Shown in pieces: positions 6,230 through 12,123 of a DNA stretch of 64,000 nucleotides (position 1 is its first letter; the number at the start of each line of letters is the position of its first letter). The stretch lies in assembly GCA_015478645.1 (NCBI GenBank), contig JADMIL010000008.1, positions 1 through 64,000 on the forward strand, written 5' to 3'. The translations under genes were made by a program, and so were the position numbers. The DNA is from Candidatus Binataceae bacterium (GTDB lineage: Bacteria; Desulfobacterota; Binatia; Binatales; Binataceae). The notes beneath the pieces were generated by a model that saw only the letters and a list, made by a program, of their open reading frames with translations, made no database searches and was not told the origin of the DNA.

Positions 6230-6461
6230 GCTCGTGCGTGATTCTAGTGTTATCAACCCCGCATCGCGACCGGCGTGATATTGGCGGCCGTTGAAGCGAG
6301 CCGGCCGACGGCGAGATTATTGGGTGGGGCGCGCGGACGAGCGCGGCGCGGCTGGCAATAGCGGGGGTTTGTTGTATGATGGCGGCGGTTGAGAGCGTCC
6401 CGGCGGGCGATATTGCCTACGCGGAGCGCGGATTCCTCATTACAAAGAGAGCGTGAGGCAA
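6230..6461 (+). promoter_or_regulatory. icd upstream region with candidate sigma-70 promoter
   Basis: Leader and promoter region of icd. The best candidate is TGGCAA (6353-6358), a 16-base spacer and TATGAT (6375-6380), which would give a 5' leader of about 75 bases. The -10 is good and the -35 is weak. No other structure is evident. Confidence 0.35.
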
Positions 6462-7706
6462 ATGGCGTTCGAGCATATCAAGATTCCCAGCGGCGGCGAA
6501 AAAATCCGGCTCGAGAGCGGCAAGCTGCAGGTCCCCGACCGGCCGATCATCCCGTATATCGAAGGCGACGGCACCGGCCGCGACATCTGGAAGGCGTCGC
6601 AATACGTCTTCGATCACGCGGTCGAAAAGACTTACGGGGGCAAGCGCAAGATCGCCTGGATGGAGGTCTTCGCGGGCGAAAAACCCTTCAACTTGTATAA
6701 GAGCTGGCTGCCCGACGAGACGGTCGAGGCCTTCAAAGAGTACCTCGTCGGCATCAAGGGGCCGCTGACCACGCCGATTGGCGGCGGTATCCGGTCGCTC
6801 AACGTGGCGCTGCGCCAGTTGCTCGACCTCTACGTCTGCCTGCGCCCGGTGCGCTACTTCAAGGGCGTGCCGAGTCCGGTCAAGAATCCCGACAAGCTCG
6901 ACGTGGTGATTTTCCGCGAGAACACGGAAGACATTTACGCCGGTATCGAATGGGCGGCCGAATCGCCCGAAGCGAAGAAGGTTATCAAGTTTTTGCGCGA
7001 GGAGATGGGCGTCAAGAATATCCGCTTCCCCAACACTTCGGGTATCGGCATCAAGCCCATTTCGCGCGAGGGATCGGAACGGCTGATCCGCGCGGCGCTG
7101 GATTACGCGATCGCGCACCAGCGCAAGAGCGTCACGATGGTGCATAAAGGCAACATCATGAAGTACACCGAAGGCGCTTTCCGCGACTGGGGCTACGAGC
7201 TGGTCAAGCGCGAGTACAAGGGCAAGGCGGTGGGCTGGGACGATTGCGACGGCAAGCCGCCGGCGGGACAGGTGCTGGTCAAGGACGCGATCGCGGATAT
7301 CACGCTGCAGCAGGTGCTGACGCGGCCCGACGAATTCGACGTCGTCGCGACGATGAACTTGAACGGCGACTACCTGTCCGACGCGCTCGCCGCGCAGGTC
7401 GGCGGTATCGGGATCGCGCCCGGCGCCAATATCAACTACCTGACGGGCCACGCGATCTTCGAGGCGACGCACGGCACCGCGCCGAAATACGCCGATCAGG
7501 ACAAGGTCAATCCGGGATCGGTGATCCTGTCGGGCGTGCTGATGTTCGAGCATATGGGATGGCAGGAGGTGGCCGACGGGATCATCCGCGGCATCGACAA
7601 GACGATCGGCAACAAGACCGTCACCTACGATTTTGAGCGGCTGATGACCGGCGCGAAGCTGCTGAAATGCTCGGAGTTCGGCAAGGCGATCGTCGACAAT
7701 ATGTAG
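6462..7706 (+). CDS. icd: NADP-dependent isocitrate dehydrogenase
   Basis: A 414-residue TCA-cycle enzyme that oxidatively decarboxylates isocitrate to 2-oxoglutarate. It has the [14 protein letters not shown] start, the substrate loop [13 protein letters not shown] with the serine that is phosphorylated in E. coli Icd, and [20 protein letters not shown], whose Lys-Tyr pair marks NADP rather than NAD specificity. The frame could also begin at GTG 6453, three codons upstream. I prefer ATG 6462 because it matches the family length (E. coli 416). It is followed at once by a strong intrinsic terminator, so it is monocistronic, although mdh, sucCD and ndk lie a few kilobases downstream. Confidence 0.97.
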
Positions 7707-7751
7707 AGCTACGGCGCGGCGATAATGGCTGCGCGACCGCGATTCATATCG

Positions 7752-7793
7752 ACGGCCGGAGCCGGATAAAATCCGCTCCGGCCGTTTTCATTT
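7752..7793 (+). terminator. Intrinsic terminator of icd
   Basis: A perfect 10-bp stem ACGGCCGGAG / CTCCGGCCGT (7752-7761 with 7776-7785), extended inside by CGGAT/ATCCG around an AAA loop. TTTTCATTT follows. It starts 45 bases past the icd stop codon. Confidence 0.9.
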
Positions 7794-7816
7794 GGCGGGC
7801 CCGATGATCGCTCGCG

Positions 7817-8335
7817 CTAATGCGTGCCCATCTTGAGGCGATCGGGCTGGGCCCAACCCTCTTTGAGCGGCACCATGAAGTAGGGCACCAGCGTCATCTT
7901 GGAGAATTTCCATTCGCCATTGACGCGTAAATATTCGTCGTCGTAGCGGGCCGCCACCAGGAACGCCTCGCCGTTGTAGATCGGTTTGGCCTCGAGGTAG
8001 GAAAAGCCGTGGCCGCGATCGCCGCTCAAATGGATCGTGTGGTTGTGGATGAACTGTTTGACCCAGGTGATGCGCGGCGCGTCGTCGGGGGTCCCGGCCG
8101 GCGGCTGCACCAGGCCGCCGAAAAAGCGCAGAATCTGTTCGCGCCCGGTGGCATGGCCCAGATGGGCGAAGTCGAGCACGCCATCTTTGGTGAAGAGGTC
8201 GGGGATCTCCTTGAACCGTGCCTCGTTGACGTACTCGTGATAGCGATAGCGCAAGTCGCGGACCGCCTCGCGGTCGTATAACTCGCGAACCTTGCTTTCC
8301 AGTTCCAGAACCCGCGCTTCAAGATCGGACGCCAT
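7817..8335 (-). CDS. SnoaL-like / NTF2-fold protein
   Basis: A 172-residue protein of the SnoaL_4 type (NTF2-like alpha+beta barrel), a fold used by small isomerases, dehydratases and subunits of ring-hydroxylating systems. A helix ELYDREAVRDLRYRYHEYVNEARFKEIPDLFTKDGVLDF opens the domain, and TIHLSGDRGHGFSYLEA and AARYDDEYLRVNGEWKFSKM are typical strands. I chose the ATG at 8335 because GGAGG lies seven bases upstream; the frame upstream is Arg-rich and unlikely to be coding. It is convergent with icd across the terminator. The substrate is unknown. Confidence 0.8.
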   Translation of the reverse strand: MASDLEARVLELESKVRELYDREAVRDLRYRYHEYVNEARFKEIPDLFTKDGVLDFAHLGHATGREQILRFFGGLVQPPAGTPDDAPRITWVKQFIHNHTIHLSGDRGHGFSYLEAKPIYNGEAFLVAARYDDEYLRVNGEWKFSKMTLVPYFMVPLKEGWAQPDRLKMGTH

Positions 8336-8731
8336 GGGTGGTCCTCCGTGGGATGCGATGGAGGGTATGTACCACGGAGCCGTCGCGAGCGCCAAAGGCG
8401 GGAGGCGCCGCCGCGAGCGGCCGCGGTCGCCATTCATTCCTCGGTTATCTACCTTAGCGAAAGTTGAGAAGCGTGAAACAAATTCGCGCTTCGATAAACG
8501 CTGATGTTCAGCCTGTTTCAGACCCGATCAAGATTTCAGACTAAACGCTCCGTAGGGCTCTGCCGATAATAACACCTTCCAAATCAGGCGATGACGCCTG
8601 CCCGCGTATGGCACCTGGTTTGCTCGTGTATCGACCTGGCACGAAATAGATGGTCTCGGACCGCGAGGGCCGGTTCCGATTCTATAGCTAGTCAATCGGC
8701 CTGATTTCAGGCGCAAACCAGGGAGGAGATC
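8336..8731. other. Intergenic region, 396 bases, lower G+C than flanks
   Basis: Region between two divergent genes. It holds a near-consensus sigma-54 promoter (8609-8624), a CAGGCG/CGCCTG inverted repeat just upstream of it (8585-8600), and two direct repeats TTTCAGAC (8517-8524 and 8535-8542). The base composition is visibly richer in A+T than the neighbouring genes. I see no RNA gene. Confidence 0.5.
8609..8624 (+). promoter_or_regulatory. Candidate sigma-54 (-24/-12) promoter
   Basis: TGGCACCTGGTTTGCT matches the RpoN consensus TGGCACG-N4-TTGCW at every defined position except the seventh (C for G), with exact GG-to-GC spacing. The predicted transcript would start near 8635, about 97 bases before the ATG of the secreted protein gene. 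An activator-type sigma-54 promoter implies control by an enhancer-binding protein not found in this window. Confidence 0.6.
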
Positions 8732-9568
8732 ATGCGAATCTATGGACTCAAGGCGGCGCTGGGCGCCGCTCTCATGCTGATGCTTGCGGCCAACCAGGGG
8801 ATGGCCCAAAGCCTGCCCACACCGGGACCGAATCAGACGCTCGGCTTCGGTAACGGCAAAATTGTCGAGTTCACCTACACCGAGAACTTCGATTGTGTCG
8901 ATGAACCGACCGAAGACTTGAACTTCAACGGCATTCTGGCCCAAGTCGATCCCAGCGAGCTCTACATCCCGATTTGCCAGCCGGGTAATGCACCAACATT
9001 CGACCCCACTGGCGCGCCGGTTAAACGGACCGATAAGCTCTACGTCTTGATCCCGTTTTTCTCATCGACCAACGACACCAATCCGGCCGATGCCATCCCC
9101 TGTCCAGCGGCCACCGTACCGGGTGAAGTATGTGGCTCCGCCCTTGGCACTTTTCTGGTCAGCAATTTCGGCATGGTTCCTGAGGCCTTCGAGGCCACTC
9201 CCGCGGTTGCCGTCCAATGCCCCAATCCGAGCGATCCGGCAGGCTCGTGCACGATGCATGGCGACACGGTTGACATGTCGCTGGTCCTCGCCACCCTTGG
9301 TAAGGCACCCAATCCGCCGACCGGCAACATCTTCGTGCCACTGCCGAATCATAGCCATCTGATCACGACCGACCTCGCGCACAAGAAATCGGTCTGGTGG
9401 CAAATAATCGCGGTGCTGGTCGAGAACCCAACCGATTGGCCGGCCGCTGATGGCAGCAGCGGTATCACCACGCTGAAGCAACTAAATGCGGCGATCTCTG
9501 CGAGCGGCGCGATCGAAGTGCCGAGCAACTTCTTCCTCTTTTTCGGCTCAAAGATCATCAAAAAGTAG
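8732..9568 (+). CDS. Secreted six-cysteine protein of unknown function
   Basis: A 278-residue protein that I do not recognise. It starts with a clean signal peptide (MRIYGLKAALGAALMLMLAANQGMAQ, cleavage expected after AQ), and GGGAGGAGA stands just before the ATG. The mature part holds six cysteines (in NFDCVDE, PICQPG, IPCPAA, EVCGS, VQCPNP and GSCTMH), which suggests three disulfides outside the cytoplasm. There are no membrane segments after the signal, and the C-terminus is lysine-rich (GSKIIKK). Codon use is less G+C-rich than in the housekeeping neighbours, which fits recent transfer or a fast-evolving extracytoplasmic role. It stands alone, behind a candidate sigma-54 promoter and before a large hairpin. 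Confidence 0.8.
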   Translation: MRIYGLKAALGAALMLMLAANQGMAQSLPTPGPNQTLGFGNGKIVEFTYTENFDCVDEPTEDLNFNGILAQVDPSELYIPICQPGNAPTFDPTGAPVKRTDKLYVLIPFFSSTNDTNPADAIPCPAATVPGEVCGSALGTFLVSNFGMVPEAFEATPAVAVQCPNPSDPAGSCTMHGDTVDMSLVLATLGKAPNPPTGNIFVPLPNHSHLITTDLAHKKSVWWQIIAVLVENPTDWPAADGSSGITTLKQLNAAISASGAIEVPSNFFLFFGSKIIKK

Positions 9569-9575
9569 CCGATTG

Positions 9576-9611
9576 TTGTGCGGCGCTGCGATCGATTGCG
9601 GCGCCGCACAA
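9576..9611 (+). terminator. Strong hairpin after the secreted-protein gene
   Basis: An 11-bp perfect stem TTGTGCGGCGC / GCGCCGCACAA (9576-9586 with 9601-9611), seven bases past the stop codon. There is no T-run after it, so it may stabilise the 3' end or act with Rho rather than be a classic intrinsic terminator. Confidence 0.45.
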
Positions 9612-9838
9612 CCGATCGCCGATGCGGTGCCGGGCGGGGGACGCGGCTTCACCTCGCGCGGTGCGGCGGCTAAAATTCCGGGCTTGCGGGCGCCCGGCGG
9701 CTTGCCGTGGGGCGCTTGAAATGGAATTTTAGAGCGTTAAGATTTGCGCAATCGGCGAAGGCGAAGATATAAGTTACGCTGAACGCGGCGTAATCGGCGC
9801 CGCCAATCCCGGAAACAGACGAACTGCGGAATAAAATC

Positions 9839-10780
9839 GTGGCGAAGAGAAAAAAGATTGCTTTCATCGGCGCCGGCAACGTCGGCGCGACCTGCGCCCA
9901 TCTGTGCTTCCTGCGCAGCCTCGGCGATATCATGCTGTACGACATTATCGACGGCCTGCCGCAGGGCAAGGCGCTCGATATGCTCGAGTCGGCGCCGGTG
10001 CTGGGCGTCGACGTCGAGGTGACCGGCTCAATCGAGATCAAGGATATCGCGGGCGCCGACTGTATCGTGGTGACCTCGGGGTCGCCGCGCAAACCGGGCA
10101 TGAGCCGCGACGACCTGCTCAAGATCAACGCGGGTGTGATGAATATAGTCGGCAAGGCGATCAAGGAGCATGCGCCGGAGGCCTTCGTGATCGCGGTGAC
10201 CAATCCGCTCGACGCGATGGTCACCCAGCTCAAACGGGTTACTGGACTGCCCAAGCATCGGATTGTCGGGCAGGCCGGCGTGCTCGATTCGGCACGCTAT
10301 CGGACTTTCCTGGCGGCCGAGCTCAACGTCTCGGTGGGCAGCGTGAGCGCGATGGTGCTCGGCGGCCATGGCGACGACATGGTGCCGGTGCGCAGTTACA
10401 CCACGGTCGGCGGGCAGCCGGTCGAGAAGCTGATCGGCGCTAAGCGGCTGGAAGAGATCGAAGTACGCACGCGCAATGGCGGCGCCGAGATCGTCAACCT
10501 GATGAAGACCTCGTCATATTACGCGGCCGGCACGGCGGTCTATCGGATGGTCGAGGCCTACATGCTCGACCGCAAAGAGGTGCTGCCGGCGGCGGCATAT
10601 CTCGAGGGCGAGTACGGCGTGCAGGGCCTGTTCGCCGGCGTGCCGGTGGTGGTCGGCGGCGGCGGGGTCGAGCGGATCGTCGAAATCGAGCTGACCGCGG
10701 GTGAGCGCAAGGCGTTCGAGAGTTCGGTCGCCCATGTGCGCGAACTGGTCGAGGCGATGGACAAGGTGATCGGCGCCTAG
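9839..10780 (+). CDS. mdh: Malate dehydrogenase (LDH-like type)
   Basis: A 313-residue NAD-dependent malate dehydrogenase of the lactate-dehydrogenase-like subfamily, interconverting malate and oxaloacetate. The NAD fold starts FIGAGNVGATCAHLCF. VTNPLDAMVTQLKRVTGLP, GQAGVLDSARYRTFLA and the catalytic histidine block VLGGHGDDMVP follow. The start is GTG at 9839. The TAG stop codon is built from the TA flank and the first G of a MITE-like repeat, but the length is normal, so no loss of function is implied. sucC, sucD and ndk follow on the same strand. Confidence 0.97.
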   Translation: MAKRKKIAFIGAGNVGATCAHLCFLRSLGDIMLYDIIDGLPQGKALDMLESAPVLGVDVEVTGSIEIKDIAGADCIVVTSGSPRKPGMSRDDLLKINAGVMNIVGKAIKEHAPEAFVIAVTNPLDAMVTQLKRVTGLPKHRIVGQAGVLDSARYRTFLAAELNVSVGSVSAMVLGGHGDDMVPVRSYTTVGGQPVEKLIGAKRLEEIEVRTRNGGAEIVNLMKTSSYYAAGTAVYRMVEAYMLDRKEVLPAAAYLEGEYGVQGLFAGVPVVVGGGGVERIVEIELTAGERKAFESSVAHVRELVEAMDKVIGA

Positions 10781-10889
10781 CGAACCTCGGCACAAGTTAG
10801 GTTGTCAATCTGAGCGCCGCGAAGAATCCCGGATCCGGGACCCATGCGCTGCGCTCAGGGTGACAGCAGAGCCTTGTGCAGAGGTTCCC
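10780..10889 (+). repeat. MITE-like palindromic repeat, copy C
   Basis: A full 110-bp copy. It starts GCGAACCTCGGCACAAG right after TA (10778-10779) and ends TTGTGCAGAGGTTCCC followed by TG instead of TA. The centre is ATCCCGGATCCGGGAC. It begins inside the mdh stop codon and fills most of the mdh-sucC gap, so any operon transcript would contain this long hairpin. Confidence 0.9.
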
Positions 10890-10953
10890 TGGCGGCGGCC
10901 GCAACGGTGGTGCACGGAACGTCAGCCGACAAGCATTGAACTACAGGTAGCGC

Positions 10954-12123
10954 ATGAATATTCATGAATTTCAGGCCAAGCAGATTCTCGGCCGCTTCGG
11001 CGTGCCGGTGCCCAAGGGTCATCCGGCCGCGACGCCCGAAGAGGCGGCCAAAGCCTTCGAGACCTTGGGCCTGGCGAAGGCCGTCATCAAGGCGCAGATC
11101 CATGCCGGTGGACGGGGCAAGGCGGGCGGCGTCAAGCTGATCGCGAGCGCCGCCGAGGCACGCGATTTCGCCACGCGGTTGTTAGGCAAGCCACTCGTGA
11201 CGCATCAGACGGGGCCGGACGGACGTATCGTCCGGCGGGTCTACGTCGAGCAGGCGAGCGAGGTCGCGCGCGAGCTCTACCTGGGGATGGTGGTCGACCG
11301 CAAAGCCGAGGGCGTTTCGGTGATTGCGAGCACCGAGGGCGGGATGGAGATCGAGGAGGTCGCGGCCAAGACGCCCGAGCGCATCTTGACCGAGCCGATC
11401 GACCCCGTGATCGGGCTGAGCGGCTTCCAGGCGCGCAAAATCGCCTTCGCACTCGGACTGCGCGACAAGCAGGTGGGGCAGTTCGGCGCGCTGATTGCGG
11501 CGCTCTACCGGGCGTTCGTCGAGACCGACGCGTCGCTGCTCGAGATCAATCCGCTGGTGGTGACCAAGGACGGCACGGTGCTGTGCCTCGACGCGAAGAT
11601 GTCGTTCGACGACAATGCGCTGTTTCGCCATCCGGAGATTCGCGAGCTGCGCGACGCGAACGAGGAAGATCCGGCCGAGACCGAAGCGGCGAAGTACGAT
11701 CTGAGCTACGTCAACCTCGACGGCAATATCGGCTGCATGGTCAACGGCGCGGGGCTGGCGATGGCGACGATGGACATCGTCAAGTATTACGGCGCGGAGC
11801 CGGCCAACTTCCTCGACGTCGGCGGCGGCGCCAATTCGCAAAAGGTCGCGGCCGCGTTCCGCATCCTGCTCGCCGACGAGCGGGTCAAGGCGGTGCTGGT
11901 CAATATCTTCGGCGGGATCATGCAATGCGACGTGCTGGCGCAGGGCGTGGTCGACGCCGCGCGCGAGGTCAAGCTGAGTATCCCGCTGGTGGTGCGGATG
12001 GAGGGCACCAACGTGGATAAGGGCAAGCAGATTCTCAAGGACTCGGGCATCAAGGTGATCGCGGCGAACGACATGGCCGACGCGGCGCGGCGGGTGGTCG
12101 AAGCGATCGGACAGCGCGCCTAG
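10954..12123 (+). CDS. sucC: Succinyl-CoA synthetase, beta subunit
   Basis: A 389-residue ATP-grasp subunit that, with SucD, converts succinyl-CoA to succinate with ATP or GTP formation. It begins MNIHEFQAKQILGRFGVPVPKG (normal start) and contains KAQIHAGGRGKAGGVK, LEINPLVVTKDG, the Mg/nucleotide loop, and FLDVGGGANSQKVAAAFRILL and NIFGGIMQCD in the CoA-ligase half. Length is normal. sucD follows after 44 bases, and a MITE-like repeat lies upstream, between it and mdh. Confidence 0.98.
   Translation: MNIHEFQAKQILGRFGVPVPKGHPAATPEEAAKAFETLGLAKAVIKAQIHAGGRGKAGGVKLIASAAEARDFATRLLGKPLVTHQTGPDGRIVRRVYVEQASEVARELYLGMVVDRKAEGVSVIASTEGGMEIEEVAAKTPERILTEPIDPVIGLSGFQARKIAFALGLRDKQVGQFGALIAALYRAFVETDASLLEINPLVVTKDGTVLCLDAKMSFDDNALFRHPEIRELRDANEEDPAETEAAKYDLSYVNLDGNIGCMVNGAGLAMATMDIVKYYGAEPANFLDVGGGANSQKVAAAFRILLADERVKAVLVNIFGGIMQCDVLAQGVVDAAREVKLSIPLVVRMEGTNVDKGKQILKDSGIKVIAANDMADAARRVVEAIGQRA

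Follow-up and report, generated by a model that had tools for sequence, protein, structure and literature searches.

A near-consensus sigma-54 sequence stands before the gene of a six-cysteine secreted protein in a Candidatus Binataceae genome. The locus raises the question of whether this sequence is a working promoter and how a member of this protein family came to lie behind it. In the window, which is the whole 64,000-nt stretch of DNA that was analysed, the site has the following surroundings:

6453 to 7706, plus strand: isocitrate dehydrogenase gene (icd), the left neighbour (Pfam Iso_dh, E 3.8e-91)
7817 to 8335, minus strand: SnoaL-like gene (SnoaL_4), divergent (Pfam E 5.6e-22)
8609 to 8624, plus strand: putative sigma-54 (RpoN) -24/-12 promoter, TGGCAC-CTGGT-TTGCT, called from sequence, matrix score and placement statistics
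8635, plus strand: predicted transcription start, about 12 nt past the -12 element, derived from sigma-54 geometry
8732 to 9568, plus strand: secreted protein gene (278 aa), with a signal-peptide-like start, six cysteines and invariant CTMH and HxH motifs
9575 to 9612, no strand: self-complementary stretch just past the secreted gene, 89% over 38 nt, no T-run; it may terminate the secreted-gene transcript
9839 to 10780, plus strand: malate/lactate dehydrogenase gene (mdh), the right neighbour, with homologues in 28 of 29 genomes

The consensus of RpoN promoters is TGGCACG-N4-TTGCW. A check of the sequence placed TGGCACCTGGTTTGCT at 8609-8624 on the plus strand, upstream of the secreted-protein gene. 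It departed from the consensus by a single base, C for G after TGGCAC (one mismatch in 16), and its GG-to-GC distance was exact for the -24/-12 spacing, which confirmed the original prediction of a near-perfect fit at all but one position. The placement and orientation claimed there for the six-cysteine protein also held, as the site lies 108 nt before the ATG at 8732 on the same strand, and AGGGAGGAG stands before this ATG. Scored with a sigma-54 weight matrix, the site reached 16.6 bits, the highest value in the window, followed by 12.1 for the next best. The same score was attained by 1 of 1200 shuffled 250-nt upstream regions.

A perfect 10-bp inverted repeat, CCTGGTTTGC at 8614-8623 and GCAAACCAGG at 8713-8722, links the -12 region with the ribosome-site region. 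In a transcript beginning upstream of 8614, this repeat could mask the start site of the secreted gene. The leader also contains the palindrome GCCTGATTTCAGGC at 8699-8712, and the direct repeat TTTCAGAC occurs at 8516-8523 and 8534-8541, 18 nt apart.

The strongest rival explanation holds that the string is RpoN-like by chance and that a housekeeping-type promoter, so far unrecognised, drives the gene. Genome-wide counts speak for it. The exact pattern TGGCACN5TTGCW had 2 matches in the 3.06-Mb genome compared to 1 for the reversed control, and with at most one mismatch there were 46 genomic matches compared to 68. The site was also not conserved in the homologues. The bare match is therefore near chance by genome-wide count, a string match alone was rejected as proof of a promoter, and placement decides.

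All 46 signal matches and all 68 control matches were sorted with one gene caller, a home-made program using codon usage and a ribosome-site bonus, which picked the starts automatically. A match was counted as promoter-placed when it was intergenic and 10-260 nt ahead of a same-strand start, a definition that covers about 5% of the position-strands within the window. The sigma-54 pattern was promoter-placed in 25 of 46 cases and the reversed control in 4 of 68 (Fisher one-sided 6e-9), so that the control rate was exceeded about ninefold. Intergenic matches numbered 30 of 46 and 12 of 68, respectively, and 8 of the 10 matches with at least 15 bits were promoter-placed. By estimate, chance accounts for about 21/0.94 = 22 of the 46 matches and, among the 25 placed ones, for 1 to 2, so roughly 95% of the placed matches should be real. 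The original prediction had proposed a genome scan with an RpoN matrix to see how rare such a score is; the matches proved strongly promoter-placed, while the raw match itself is not rare. A consensus scan detected no sigma-70-type promoter in 8336-8731, which, together with the placement excess and the shuffle result, makes a chance string an unlikely explanation. The reading of 8609-8624 as an RpoN promoter is well supported by the genome-wide placement and is very probably correct.

The genome also carries the required machinery. The rpoN gene, whose absence had been named as evidence against the original prediction, was found on contig C76 (E 1.6e-62), in a cluster that resembles the usual lpt/rpoN/hpf/ptsN/rapZ one, with neighbour names assigned by eye. 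A genome search with Sigma54_activat matched 15 proteins, 8 of them above 200 bits and the other 7 weak. The second exact match, ATGGCACCAGGATTGCT at C91:32089-32104, is flanked by an enhancer-binding-protein gene, which ends just ahead of it, and by a small ORF that begins 84 nt further on; it is probably the RpoN promoter of its neighbour. At this place TGGCACCAGGATTGCT is found on the minus strand (1501-1516 of locus L003), the ORF ahead has 87 aa, and the preceding activator gene has, by eye, a GAF-like N-terminus. The stretches surrounding the other seven activators contained 16 matrix matches of at least 9.5 bits, of which 8 were intergenic.

PII genes are classical RpoN targets, and a promoter-placed match was found upstream of a PII-like gene (L222, identified by eye). 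Placed sigma-54-like matches preceded two pilus-assembly-like genes as well (L227 and L237, names by eye), and locus L235 has a sigma-54-like site ahead of a gene that looks by eye like a permease gene. These four loci are predicted to be the start of an RpoN regulon for the genus. In this way, a single motif call leads to an RpoN regulon that can be put to the test, in a genome of which only draft contigs exist.

The mature secreted protein has cysteines at C55, C82, C124, C134, C163 and C173. Four cysteines and the histidines H176, H207 and H209 were invariant in 39 of 39 family members, and these histidines may form a metal site. Pfam and NCBIfam gave no family match for the protein, and 1 of the 39 members reached E 0.038, with a DUF. 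The structure model was confident, with a mean pLDDT of 84.8; compared with PDB folds, it had no match by Foldseek at E 0.001, a second look at Z 2 also gave none, and a sequence search of the PDB gave no helpful match. Two distant Pseudonocardia matches were found in a plasmid search. This Pseudonocardia protein, present on two plasmids, resembles the secreted protein with 28.7% identity over 87% of its length, and is annotated merely as hypothetical, with no function or regulation on record. The regulated extracellular function suggested in the original prediction may apply to the protein.

The secreted protein occurred in 11 of 96 related genomes, at 13 places, and a search of 148 genomes of the class returned the same 13 places. 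One of these is a 3.9-kb contig (G022:C101; L005/L065) identical to positions 7232-11065 of the window, including parts of icd and mdh. Lying in the MAG of another genus, it is most likely a misbinned contig. We treated it as the same DNA, excluded it from the promoter counts and rejected it as independent support. A search of named genomes yielded 42 loci, distributed over Acidobacteria, Rhodanobacter and relatives, Burkholderiales, Alphaproteobacteria and others, 40 of which were counted after removal of L065 (identical) and L106 (truncated). The tree and alignment A2 further exclude L104 and L105, which have short open frames.

Elsewhere, this family appears to be controlled by a different system, one of the envelope-stress type. 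With no motif model given beforehand, we searched all 4-mer pairs at a fixed distance in the 150 nt upstream of 11 homologues, with the window excluded. ATCC stood at distance 20 from CGTA (ATCC-N16-CGTA) in 9 of the 11 upstreams, compared to a maximum of 4 in 60 shuffles. The exact motif was present in 30 of the 40 named homologues. Among the 32 homologues outside the first set it was found in 24, while the shuffles gave a mean of 0.10 and a maximum of 2, and the reverse strand gave 0. A matrix for this extracytoplasmic-function (ECF) motif was trained on the nine motif-bearing upstreams.

The same motif with the same spacing was the top match ahead of the sigma gene in 15 of 18 sigma/RskA operons; in the remaining ones it was the second-ranked match (L046), weak (L040) or missing (L050). 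The operon in the genome of the window, C5:22553-23989, encodes an ECF sigma factor and, after it, an RskA_C protein (63.9 bits, cut-off 29.4), and AATCCACC...CCGTATCT lies immediately upstream. This operon (6512-7990 of locus L025) has its own copy of the motif and so probably regulates itself; about 80 nt past the anti-sigma gene, the contig ends. Each of the 11 genomes having the secreted gene contained an RskA match of E 1.9e-52 or lower, while 7 of the 85 genomes without it reached 1e-50 and 42 had some match at 0.001. In 5 of the 11 genomes (G006, G008, G009, G010 and G022), the secreted and RskA genes were no more than 1.1 kb apart, and a sigma gene was present in the fetched flank of 11 of the 40 named loci, one of them only partial. 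These sequence patterns indicate that the family is elsewhere controlled by an ECF/RskA-type system.

The window copy departs from this pattern. Within 400 nt upstream it had no ATCC/T-N15-17-CGTA, and its best ECF score, 6.7, was matched by 25% of the shuffled upstreams. The tree placed it inside a clade of eight (support 88/96), where it forms a group (90/92) with two ECF-driven homologues, L066 and L079; these supports are moderate. The seven other members of the clade had ECF scores of 22 to 28.5, most of them being in the training set. No homologue had a sigma-54 score above 12.2, compared to 16.6 for the window copy, and the sigma-54 site is private to the window copy. The paralogue in the same genome (contig C33, locus L016) is 54-55% identical to the window copy and retains the ECF motif with a score of 26.9, as a member of the training set; its upstream showed no sigma-54 site above 6.4. 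Ten of the 40 named homologues also had no exact ECF motif, yet had gained no sigma-54 site, so a missing motif is in itself no sign of a swap. Apart from the identical 3.9-kb contig, no orthologue of the window copy was detected in the 148 genomes of the class, which leaves the sigma-54 site untestable by conservation.

One ECF-like sequence does lie next to the site:

8582 to 8608, plus strand: candidate relic of an ECF promoter, AATC-N19-CGTA, with a background score; speculative

Being the sole near-match in the 400 nt upstream of a gene whose family mostly has ECF promoters, it invites a second rival explanation, in which ECF/RskA still drives the gene through this degenerate element and the RpoN-like string is merely adjacent. 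The spacing of N19, compared to N17 in the family, is 2 nt over a near-invariant value, and the score of 6.7 that a quarter of the shuffles reach stands against the range of the seven clade members. We consider this explanation quite improbable. An overlapping ECF promoter, in which CGTAT of the homologues would correspond to CGTATGGCAC of the window, was rejected on spacing and score. On the swapped duplicate, the new -24 element might derive directly from the ECF -10 element as it decayed, with CGTA abutting TGGCAC (the candidate relic ends one base ahead of the latter); we regard this origin as doubtful.

The surrounding genes bear on how the promoter was acquired. In 5 of 16 loci of relatives, the SnoaL gene has mdh as its neighbour and the secreted gene is missing, which makes an insertion of the secreted gene at this place within the present lineage most likely. 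We considered the capture of a pre-existing sigma-54 site from the gap between SnoaL and mdh and rejected it: the best score in the gaps of five relatives was 8.9, and the promoter was thus not there before the gene arrived.

Taken jointly, a functional RpoN promoter at 8609-8624 and a swap from ECF/RskA to sigma-54 on a duplicate form the likely explanation of the locus. The gene would be a duplicate from a secreted family whose usual transcription depends on an ECF sigma factor, itself restrained by an RskA-type anti-sigma factor. We infer that the change ran in this direction: the duplicate would have been inserted without an ECF promoter into the SnoaL-mdh gap and come under sigma-54, and the genome would retain two paralogues under two sigma factors. 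RNA polymerase with sigma-54 would bind 8609-8624 as a closed complex, and would initiate near 8635 only upon ATP hydrolysis by an upstream-bound AAA+ enhancer-binding protein, one of the eight. The activator may perhaps be bound at the following element:

8468 to 8492, no strand: 25-bp palindrome GAAGCGTGAA-N5-TTCGCGCTTC, about 155 nt before the predicted start, a weak candidate enhancer (UAS)

This palindrome was unique in the genome, and an equally good one appeared in 47 of 400 shuffles. It was not common to other RpoN-like promoters, among which its half-sites GAAGCG/CGCTTC also had no same-place pair, and it may just as well belong to the divergent SnoaL gene. With the -24 element as the strongest part of the site and no clear enhancer found, RpoN might instead bind without being activated and block or silence another promoter, but both the position 108 nt ahead of the gene and the excess of matches placed in this way fit an ordinary promoter and make this very hard to credit.

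Compared with known RpoN promoters, the site shares the consensus, the exact spacing, the place before a gene, and the presence of rpoN and AAA+ activators in the genome. It differs in being private to one gene copy, and in that its enhancer and cognate activator are only candidates. In passages of a comparative work, sigma-54 is linked with exported components and the cell surface (PMC3162934); the present case agrees with this link but is not tested by it.

The ECF side of the explanation resembles the SigK/RskA regulon of Mycobacterium (mpt70/mpt83) in that an RskA_C anti-sigma gene comes after the ECF sigma gene, and in that the ECF motif lies ahead of both the operon itself and a secreted-protein gene. 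The mycobacterial system is described in parts of one report as autoregulated and as driving mpt70 (PMC7509140). In the same parts, two cysteines are reported in most ECF18 and about half of ECF19 sigma factors (PMC7509140), while the sigma protein here has no cysteines and scores 124.7 bits against the SigK cut-off of 226. Judged by these sequence features, the system is RskA-type and not SigK proper. Further differences from the mycobacterial system are that the target protein here had no solved-structure match and that the window copy itself has no ECF promoter. Among the titles and abstract starts returned by an open-access full-text search, no description of the family or of an ECF-to-sigma-54 exchange between paralogues was seen, which is a weak negative.

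As a promoter, the site is of a known kind, and its interest lies in the control swap and in the widespread uncharacterised secreted family. If, in addition, the -24 element did arise from the ECF -10 element, the locus would be a visible intermediate in the exchange of one sigma-factor system for a mechanistically different one, with both versions in one genome. The paralogue pair under two unrelated sigma systems would be a natural case for how regulation shifts between sigma factors, and also for asking which signal the secreted protein answers. The family itself combines the lack of a known domain or fold match with an ECF/RskA-type control that appears conserved from Acidobacteria to relatives of Rhodanobacter.

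In addition, two secreted proteins, at L234 and at 5761-7119 of L033, have by eye a similar start and both contain AIAPGT; one of them lies downstream of a sigma-54-like site and the other beside the ECF-driven paralogue.
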